Shown one piece after another: positions 45,347-48,721 of a stretch of DNA of 64,000 nt. Position 1 is the stretch's first letter. Each line of letters starts with the position of its first letter. This stretch comes from Verrucomicrobiota bacterium (GTDB taxonomy: Bacteria; Verrucomicrobiota; Verrucomicrobiia; Opitutales; UBA953): positions 1 through 64,000 of the forward strand of contig JAURFU010000004.1 in NCBI GenBank assembly GCA_030834165.1, written 5' to 3'. Under the pieces are notes generated by a model. The model was given only the letters and a program-made list of their open reading frames with translations. It was not told the DNA's origin and ran no database searches. The position numbers and the translations under genes were made by a program.

Positions 45347-46249
45347 TCACTCCGGCAGGCCGACGATCGAACGGGCGTAGGCCCGCGCGTCGAAGGGCTG
45401 GAGGTCAGCCGGCTGTTCGCCGACGCCGATGAAGCGGACCGGCACGCCGAGTTCGCGGACCACGGCGACGAGCGCGCCGCCGCGGGCGGTGCCGTCGAGC
45501 TTGGTCACGATGAGGCCGGTGAGGCCGACGGCTTCATGGAAGATGCGCGCCTGTTCGATGGAGTTCGCGCCGAGCGAGCCGTCGAGGACGAGCCACTTCT
45601 CGTGCGGGGCGCCGGCGTGGGCCTTGGTCGTCACGCGCACGACCTTGCGGAGTTCCTCCAGCAGGTGCGCCTTGGTGTGCAGGCGCCCGGCGGTGTCGAG
45701 GATCACGAGGTCGGCGCCGCGCGCCACGCCCGCCTTGACGGCGTCGAACGCGACCGCCGCGGGATCGGCGCCGGCGGCGGCGCCGACGACTTCGACGCCG
45801 AGCCGGTCCGCCCAGGCGGAAAGTTGTTCGCCGGCCGCCGCGCGGAACGTGTCGCATGCGCCGAGCAGGCAGGACCGGCCCTCCTGGCGCCAGCGCCAGG
45901 CGAGCTTGGCCGCGGTCGTCGTCTTGCCGGCGCCGTTGACGCCGAGGAGCATGATGACGTGCGGCTTCGAGAGGGTGCTCGCCGGCGCGGCCTCGCCCCC
46001 CAGCGCGCGGACGATGCTTTCGGCCGCGGCTTCGGCGGGCGAGGTCTTGCGCAGGGCGGCGTCGGTCTTCCAGGCGGCGCGCGCCGCTTCGACCACCTCA
46101 TCGGCGGTGGCCGGGCCGAAGTCGCCCGCGATCAGGCGCTCACGCAGCTCTTCGGCGGCCGCGGCGTCCATCGGACGCGCCAGCAGGTTGGCCACGGCCT
46201 CGGCCGTGCGGCTCAGGCCCGCCTTCAGTCGCTCGAAGAAGCCCGCCAT
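45347..46249 (-). CDS. ftsY: Signal recognition particle receptor FtsY
   Basis: 300 aa; GVNGAGKTTTAAKLAW, DTAGRLHTKAHLLEELRK, TKLDGTARGG. Confidence 0.96.
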   Translation of the reverse strand: MAGFFERLKAGLSRTAEAVANLLARPMDAAAAEELRERLIAGDFGPATADEVVEAARAAWKTDAALRKTSPAEAAAESIVRALGGEAAPASTLSKPHVIMLLGVNGAGKTTTAAKLAWRWRQEGRSCLLGACDTFRAAAGEQLSAWADRLGVEVVGAAAGADPAAVAFDAVKAGVARGADLVILDTAGRLHTKAHLLEELRKVVRVTTKAHAGAPHEKWLVLDGSLGANSIEQARIFHEAVGLTGLIVTKLDGTARGGALVAVVRELGVPVRFIGVGEQPADLQPFDARAYARSIVGLPE

Positions 46250-46252
46250 GGC

Positions 46253-47035
46253 TCAGCCGCCCTCGGCCTTGCGCGGGTCGCGCCCCAGTTCTTCCTTGTA
46301 GCTGTCGAGGATGCCGTTGACGAAACGCTTGGACTCCTCGGTCGAGAACTCCTTGGCGATGTCGACGGCCTCGTTGATGCTCACGACCGGCGGGATGTCC
46401 GTCCGGCGCATGAGTTCGAAGACGGCCACGCGCAGGATGGCGAGGTCGACGCGCGCGATGCGGCCGAAGGCCCAGTTCTTGGCGTACTTGCCGATGACCT
46501 CGTCGATGAGGGCGAGGTCCCGGATGACGCCTTGGATGAGTTCCTCGGCGAAGGCGTAATACTCGCGGGGCTGCGGGCGCTCGGAGAAGAAGTCGAAGAG
46601 GCCCGTGACCATGTCGGGGTGGCGTTGGAGCTCCCAGGAGCAGAGGAACTGCATGGCCGCGACGCGGCTGTCATGGCGACGGTTGCGTTTGGCGGGCGGC
46701 GCGGCGGGGTCGGCCGCGGCGGGTTCGTCCGGGGCGACGATGGCGATCTCGACGCCGGCGGGCACGTTATGGCGGCGGAACGCGTCGACGGTCTTCTGGT
46801 TGGAGCCGATGATCTCGATGAGGCGGCGGTGGCTGCGGATCTCCTCGCGGAGGGCCGTGCGCGGTTCCTCGACCTGCGAGGGGAGCGGGAAGGGCCCCGA
46901 GATGCGGGCGCCGGAGCCGGCGACGCTGGCGATGATGTCGGCCGCGGTCTGGTCCGCCATGCGGTAGTCGACGCCTTTGATCCGGATGCGGATCTTGGCG
47001 CGCGCGGAGGCGGAAACAGGCGAGTCGTTGTCCAT
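46253..47035 (-). CDS. nusB: Fusion protein: N-terminal ribosomal protein S10 (NusE)-like domain plus C-terminal NusB
   Basis: 260 aa single ORF; residues ~14-100 align with S10 (KIRIRIKGVDYRMADQTAADI...GPFPLP...EIRSHRRLIEII...KTVDAFRRHNVPAGVEIAI); residues ~117-255 are NusB (RVAAMQFLCSWEL...VSINEAVDIAKEFSTEESKRFVNGILD). Confidence 0.92.
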   Translation of the reverse strand: MDNDSPVSASARAKIRIRIKGVDYRMADQTAADIIASVAGSGARISGPFPLPSQVEEPRTALREEIRSHRRLIEIIGSNQKTVDAFRRHNVPAGVEIAIVAPDEPAAADPAAPPAKRNRRHDSRVAAMQFLCSWELQRHPDMVTGLFDFFSERPQPREYYAFAEELIQGVIRDLALIDEVIGKYAKNWAFGRIARVDLAILRVAVFELMRRTDIPPVVSINEAVDIAKEFSTEESKRFVNGILDSYKEELGRDPRKAEGG

Positions 47036-47038
47036 CGT

Positions 47039-47575
47039 TCAGTTCTGGGCGAAGGGTTCCTGGCCGCCGCGCTTGCGTTCCTCGTCCTCGACCTGGTCGA
47101 GGCGGGCGCCGAGCGTGACGCGGTGACGGGCCATGGTGAGGGCGGCGTGGGCGAACTCCGTGCCGCGGTCCAGCGAACCCTGGCAGCGGGCGACGGCCTG
47201 CTCGCGGGTGTTCGTCACGACGATGCCGTTGATCATCGGGACTTCGGAGCGGATGGCCGCGTCCTGGAGGGCCTGGGCCGTCGAGTGCGCGATGATCTCG
47301 TGGTGCGGGGTGTCGCCGGCGACGACGACGCCGAGGGCGATGACGCAGTCATAATCACCGGTCATGGCCGACATGTAGGCGGCGTAAGGGATCTCGCCGG
47401 AGCCGGGGACGGCGACTTCGACGATCGAGGCGGCGGGCACGCCGGCGGCGCGCAGGCCTTTGATGGCGTTCTTCTTCAGGGCCTGGACCAGCTCGCCATT
47501 GTAACCCGCGGCCACGAGGGCGAAGCGGAGTTCGGCGCCATCGATGGCGTCAGGGGTGGGCTTGTCGAGGCTCAT
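47039..47575 (-). CDS. ribH: 6,7-dimethyl-8-ribityllumazine synthase
   Basis: FALVAAGYNGELVQAL, VPGSGEIPYAAYM, ALGVVVAGDTPHHEII; start trimmed to ATG 47575. Confidence 0.95.
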   Translation of the reverse strand: MSLDKPTPDAIDGAELRFALVAAGYNGELVQALKKNAIKGLRAAGVPAASIVEVAVPGSGEIPYAAYMSAMTGDYDCVIALGVVVAGDTPHHEIIAHSTAQALQDAAIRSEVPMINGIVVTNTREQAVARCQGSLDRGTEFAHAALTMARHRVTLGARLDQVEDEERKRGGQEPFAQN

Positions 47576-47644
47576 GGCGGAAGAACGGACGTCCGATGGA
47601 GTCGCTTCGGACCAAGCCTGCAAGCGGAAACAACCGTCCGCTTC

Positions 47645-48721
47645 TCAGAAGGGCACCTGTTCGACGATCTCCAGACCGTAACCGCCGAGGCCAACGACCT
47701 TGCGCGGGTTGTTCGTGATGAGACGGATGCGGCGGAGGCCGAGGTGCGAAAGGATCTGGGCGCCGATGCCGTAGTCGCGCGCGTCCATCTTGCCGAGGCG
47801 CACGCCGTCCTGGTCGGCCTGCATGCCCCCGAAGGGCTGGGCGACGTGGACGATGACGCCGTGGCCGGCCTTGGCGACGGCTTCGAAACTGGAGGCGAGC
47901 GAGGCGCCCGCGCCGAAGGCGCTGCCCTTGAAGAGGTCGCCAAGCATGTTCTCGCGCTGGACGCGGACGAGCGTGGGCGTCTCGTCCGGCCGGCCGAGGG
48001 TGAAGACGAGGTGCTGACGTCCGTCCGGCAGCGAACGGTAGACGCGGAGCGTGAACTCGCCCCAGGCTGATTTGAAGGGGCTTTCGGCGACGGGCTCGAC
48101 GAGACGTTCGCGGCGGTGGCGGAACTCGATGAGCTGCGCGATGGAGATCATGTGCAGGCCGAACTTCCGCTTGAGTTCGACGAGCTCCGGCAGGCGGGCC
48201 ATCGAGCCGTCTTCGTTCAGGATCTCGCAGATGACGCCGCTGGGGTGCAGGCCGGCGAGCGACGCGAGGTCGACCGCGGCTTCGGTGTGACCGGCGCGCT
48301 GGAGCACGCCGCCCGGACGGGCGAGGAGCGGGAAGATGTGACCGGGCTGCACGAGCGCCTCGGGTTTGGCCTGCGGGTCGGCGAGGATCGCGATGGTCTT
48401 CGCGCGGTCGTAGGCGGAGATGCCGGTGGAGATCCCTTCGGCGGCGTCGACGGACACCGCGAAGGCGGTGCGCTGCGACTCGCGGTTCTCGGGCACCATC
48501 TGGGAGATGCCCAGTCGGCGCAGCTGATGCTCGACGGTCGGGACGCAGATGAGTCCGCGCGCATGGCGGATCATCATGTTGACCGTCTCCGGCGTGGCCT
48601 TGGAGGCCGCCATGACGAGGTCACCCTCGTTCTCGCGGTTCTCGTCGTCGGTCACGATGACGAGCTTCCCGGCGGCGATGTCCGCCAGGGCTTCCTCGAT
48701 GGTGTCGAAGGGCTCGTTCAT
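47645..48721 (-). CDS. ribB: 3,4-dihydroxy-2-butanone 4-phosphate synthase fused to a degenerate GTP cyclohydrolase II-like domain
   Basis: 358 aa; intact DDENRENEGDLVMAA, GHTEAAVDLASLAGL; GCHII half lacks the zinc Cys motif (GDLFKGSAFGAGA instead of GD..SLRCDCG). Confidence 0.92.
   Translation of the reverse strand: MNEPFDTIEEALADIAAGKLVIVTDDENRENEGDLVMAASKATPETVNMMIRHARGLICVPTVEHQLRRLGISQMVPENRESQRTAFAVSVDAAEGISTGISAYDRAKTIAILADPQAKPEALVQPGHIFPLLARPGGVLQRAGHTEAAVDLASLAGLHPSGVICEILNEDGSMARLPELVELKRKFGLHMISIAQLIEFRHRRERLVEPVAESPFKSAWGEFTLRVYRSLPDGRQHLVFTLGRPDETPTLVRVQRENMLGDLFKGSAFGAGASLASSFEAVAKAGHGVIVHVAQPFGGMQADQDGVRLGKMDARDYGIGAQILSHLGLRRIRLITNNPRKVVGLGGYGLEIVEQVPF

Follow-up and report, generated by a model that had tools for sequence, protein, structure and literature searches.

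A conserved, genus-restricted natural fusion of NusB with a loop-deleted S10 paralog in freshwater Opitutales

One genus of freshwater bacteria within the Opitutales carries a conserved and genus-restricted natural NusB-S10(delta loop) fusion, in which the S10 part is a paralog, distinct from the ribosomal S10. S10 is a textbook moonlighting protein that acts both as a ribosomal subunit and as the transcription factor NusE, and in most bacteria one protein does both jobs. The function that we infer for the fusion, with a probability of about 60%, is that of a dedicated single-chain NusB-NusE module in rRNA transcription and maturation. A search of the open-access literature found no account of a natural S10-NusB fusion.

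The fusion gene was found in a window of 64,000 nucleotides (contig JAURFU010000004.1), where it occupies positions 46253-47035, stop codon included, and encodes 260 amino acids; this gene and all features described below lie on the minus strand. The ORF is confirmed to consist of an S10 domain, a short linker and a complete NusB, with Pfam and NCBIfam matches to both families. The S10-like domain that the initial annotation had placed at 46736-46996 (residues 14-100) stands as an S10 homolog, as Ribosomal_S10 (PF00338) matches residues 16-99 with 45.6 bits against a cut-off of 21.2, the secondary structure predicted by AF2 is b-a-b-b-a-b, and Foldseek matches the domain to S10 chains. It stays below the rpsJ equivalog cut-offs (58.4 vs 72.75 bits for TIGR01049 and 64.4 vs 85 bits for NF001861). 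The linker (46685-46735; residues 101-117) is rich in Pro, Ala, Asp and Glu and has low pLDDT, and a similar N-terminal tail also precedes unfused NusB. The NusB domain (46286-46684; residues 118-250) is matched by Pfam at residues 122-246 with 111.9 bits and passes the TIGR01951 equivalog cut-off (130.8 vs 88.35 bits). It thus resembles other NusB proteins in completeness, in score and in the gene order ribH-nusB-ftsY, but differs in the S10 domain in front of it; NusB is unfused in all other genera examined. An Arg-rich motif at the start of NusB, KRNRRHDSR (46664-46690; residues 116-124), is conserved in 17 representative fusions, with K116, R117, N118, R119, R120, D122 and R124 invariant. 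By homology, this motif is likely the contact to boxA RNA.

The fusion gene is part of a tight row, ribBA-ribH-[S10-NusB]-ftsY-aroB, and is separated by 3 bp each from ribH upstream (47039-47623; TIGR00114) and from ftsY downstream (45347-46249; TIGR00064). It therefore lies outside the S10 operon, in contrast to the true rpsJ, which by motif lies directly ahead of rplC at 29 of 30 loci. An assembly chimera was ruled out, since the same ORF between ribH and ftsY recurs in about 35 independent assemblies of related organisms. In the neighboring RibBA (47645-48721) the RibB half is strong, but for the GTP cyclohydrolase II half the match to the model is limited to the last 47 residues, and the RibA part may be degenerate.

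The fused S10 domain has a shortened loop. The P43-to-E66 segment, which in E. coli S10 holds the 22-residue loop T44-Y65, is reduced to the 12 residues SQVEEPRTALRE in the window fusion (46844-46879; residues 53-64). When E. coli S10 was aligned with 24 rpsJ products of the order and 34 distinct fused domains, the loop had 22 residues in all 24 rpsJ products, those of the window's genus included, and was shortened in every fused domain, to 12 (27 domains), 13 (6) or 5 residues (1). The initial annotation had described both this reduction and the retention of the surrounding core, and the alignment bears out each of them, together with the homology to S10. The flanking GPFPLP strand (46880-46897; residues 47-52), which is expected to face NusB, keeps G38, P39, P41 and P43 in 34/34 fused domains, and EIRSHRR on the other side (46823-46843; residues 65-71) keeps R68, H70 and R72, also in 34/34. 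Further core positions that are kept include I6, R7, D14, R16, D19, T83 and G95, while K30 and R31 are gone from nearly all fused domains.

The deleted stretch is the S10 contact to helix h31 of 16S rRNA, and removal of one loop residue already impairs growth in E. coli (PMC8249722). It is thus highly implausible that the fused domain is a second, specialised ribosomal S10 which joins some 30S subunits. Apart from S10 homology nothing speaks for this, and it would have to accommodate the loss of the loop in all 34 domains, the scores below the rpsJ cut-offs, the presence of rpsJ in relatives, and the report that S10 bound to NusB is barred from the ribosome (PMC10931766).

In the sister genomes, an rpsJ with a full loop, followed by rplC, is present alongside the fusion. 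Neither rpsJ nor rplC was found in the window's own MAG, which is 81% complete. The joint absence of the two genes, the incompleteness of the MAG and the relatives that hold both rpsJ and the fusion make an assembly gap the best reading, and the same observations rule out that the fusion is the cell's sole S10. Full-length fusion matches were confined to the window's genus among 273 Opitutales genomes. Among 388 genomes of the phylum, a second S10 match was found in one genome only, which belongs to the same genus, and no other genus in either set had a second S10. One longer match, at locus L103 (residues 74-259), was rejected as a fusion since the NusB ORF begins past the S10 region. Most of the MAGs that contain the approximately 35 fusion loci carry the label Opitutae or Verrucomicrobia, and many are lake-derived according to their titles. 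The public MAG titles of two fusion contigs, L062 and L076, name Polynucleobacter and Akkermansia, but by sequence both contigs cluster with the Opitutales genus, and the titles therefore look wrong.

The fused domain appears to be derived from the rpsJ of its own lineage. In an S10 tree of 77 core columns, which is short and has long branches, most notably that of genome G019, a branch with support 97/98 splits 26 other rpsJ sequences, including that of E. coli, from a group formed by the rpsJ of the genus, the rpsJ of the sister genus and the fused domains. M17 and E75 additionally occur both in the genus's rpsJ and in the majority of the fused copies, and these two observations together argue that the fused S10 was copied from there. 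It shares the fold and core motifs of uS10 (TIGR01049), but differs from it in the missing loop, the sub-equivalog score, the location outside the S10 operon and the joining to NusB. A tree of RibBA, RibH, FtsY, AroB and NusB, with sister genera outside, places the diverged G019 fusion beside all others and requires three changes, which we read as one gain and two losses. Therefore, a single fusion at the base of the genus followed by repeated loss is the most economical reading of the trees, and the duplication that the initial annotation had proposed would be one of the lineage's own rpsJ. The S10-domain losses, at least two in number, are clean. They affect G043 and a clade of six genomes (G018, G160, G206, G259, G263 and G006), and in both lineages nusB begins directly after the ribH stop with a short tail retained. 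No separate S10 paralog was found in the unfused members of the genus. The assemblies of the six-genome clade are small, at 1.3-1.5 Mb, whereas most relatives with the fusion have assemblies of about 1.9-2.7 Mb.

The classical rrn complex is proposed to act against the termination factor Rho. Searches with TIGR00767 covered 16 genomes of the window's genus (e.g., G019, G043, G139 and G151), several of them 96-99% complete, and one genome of the sister genus (G116, 98% complete), and found Rho in none. Among 229 other Opitutales, by contrast, about 217 have Rho at E below 1e-60, and three further genera of the same family are among them. The weak TIGR00767 matches that were examined are AtpD and ABC-F proteins. 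With the sister genus represented by one genome, the simplest order of events is that Rho was lost before the split of the two genera and that the fusion came later. Protection from Rho is thus unlikely as the role of the fusion, and antitermination in the usual sense is weakened. The initial annotation had called the domain a diverged paralog specialised for antitermination and not ribosomal. The S10 tree upholds the paralogy, and the intact separate rpsJ of the sister genomes shows that it is not the ribosomal copy; antitermination, however, is not established, given 16 genomes without detected Rho and at least two losses of the S10 domain. The better fit is a role in rRNA transcription and maturation. 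In E. coli, the main role of the complex is reported to be rRNA maturation and not the blocking of Rho (PMC4807359), and a lineage which lacks detectable Rho but has kept and fused NusB and NusE agrees with that view. None of the genomes searched, among them single-contig ones, yielded a 16S rRNA gene, and matches to a boxA-like pattern were scattered and showed no link to rRNA.

The fused domains have not kept all faces of S10 equally. Of the positions conserved in rpsJ, 84% are retained in beta2 (GPxPLP), 78% in beta1, 76% in beta4 and 67% in beta3, compared with 49% in alpha1 and 42% in alpha2. In E. coli S10, alpha1, alpha2, beta1 and beta4 form the side facing RNA polymerase and NusG, opposite the side facing NusB and the ribosome (PMC4642336); the NusB side is therefore better kept than the RNAP-facing helices. 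This divergence counts against a module that works at the polymerase, and is what would be expected if the tethered S10 were regulatory or self-blocking, i.e., if it filled the S10 site of NusB, excluded free S10 and NusG, and damped NusB instead of acting as NusE. Less antitermination may also be needed where Rho is not found. However, the two S10 residues of the NusG pocket (84 and 88; PMC8116511) argue otherwise, as position 84 is V or I/L and thus hydrophobic in 34/34 fused domains and position 88 is basic in 31/34, a property that the rpsJ of the genus already shows. On its S10-binding KOW surface, the genus's NusG likewise retains DGPF and IFGR (residues named in PMC8116511), and the Arg-rich motif of NusB is conserved. 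We therefore regard self-blocking as unlikely. Among the genus genomes searched, true NusG was not found in G004. An RfaH-like NusG paralog occurs besides true NusG in every searched genome of the genus, e.g., at L213:945-1382 (G000:C62), where TIGR01955 gives 85.6 bits, below the cut-off.

The predicted structure is in line with the single-chain NusB-NusE module. For the window protein, AF2 gave a mean pLDDT of 84.5 and a pTM of 0.85, with an S10 fold that has a short beta2-beta3 hairpin, a disordered tail and a weak linker. Two domains would rarely reach such a pTM without a confident prediction of their relative placement, and the S10 domain likely docks on NusB. A second fusion (L087), modelled with a shallower alignment, reached a pTM of 0.63, which counts against the module in that a confident prediction of docking does not extend to every member. 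Foldseek matched the window model best to the NusB chain of the NusB101-S10(delta loop) crystal. As the initial annotation had noted, structural work has used an S10 with this loop removed: PDB entries 3d3b, 3d3c, 3imq and 2kvq hold a shortened S10 together with NusB or the NusG C-terminal domain, and NusE-delta denotes NusE without the ribosome-binding loop (PMC4642336). Like the fusion, the E. coli NusB-S10(delta loop) complex (3d3b, 3d3c and 3imq) combines NusB with an S10 fold minus the ribosome loop. However, the E. coli complex is engineered and has two chains, while the fusion is one natural chain with a 12-residue turn and with S10 N-terminal of NusB.

The rates of substitution show the fused S10 domain to be under purifying selection, as its dN/dS within subclades is low (0.010/0.28, 0.052/1.19, 0.061/0.82 and 0.016/0.59). 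Between subclades, the S10 domain evolves two to five times faster than NusB (dN 0.21-0.37 vs 0.05-0.15). This faster change at depth, the very diverged G019 copy and the two or more losses could reflect a remnant, in which NusE has been nearly dispensable since the loss of Rho and the fused domain is on its way to being lost. Such a remnant is nevertheless improbable in view of the low dN/dS within subclades, the core motifs in 34/34 domains and the lack of frameshifts or stops across about 35 assemblies. The clean losses in at least two lineages do indicate that free S10 can serve, which counts against the dedicated module.

The module is favored by the coincidence of a NusB-facing strand and R68, H70 and R72 kept in 34/34 domains with a loop lost in 34/34. 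In the mechanism we propose, a copy of the lineage's rpsJ would have shed the loop by which S10 is anchored in the 30S head, and would have been placed, in frame, within the disordered tail at the N-terminus of NusB. Packing of the S10 domain on NusB probably resembles that of free S10 in the known heterodimer, and tethering would ensure that NusB always has a partner and need not compete for S10 with the assembling ribosome. The most likely ligand of the module is boxA-type RNA in the nascent pre-rRNA, and the S10 domain together with NusG would hold it near RNA polymerase. As an outcome, rRNA transcription, folding and processing would be aided, rather than Rho blocked.

S10 is essential, which makes its two roles hard to separate. 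In this lineage, where Rho was not detected, they appear to have been separated naturally, and the part removed is the same as crystallographers removed. We tentatively suggest, at somewhat less than an even chance, that after the loss of Rho the shared S10/NusE became two proteins, a ribosome-only S10 and a single-chain NusB-NusE for rRNA maturation. If so, this would be a natural separation of the two functions of S10, with NusB-NusE kept for a Rho-independent role. The fusion protein could also serve as a single-chain reagent in structural work. With an apparent natural split in a lineage without detected Rho, comparisons between fused and unfused relatives could address the long-standing question of whether NusB-NusE acts against Rho or serves rRNA maturation.
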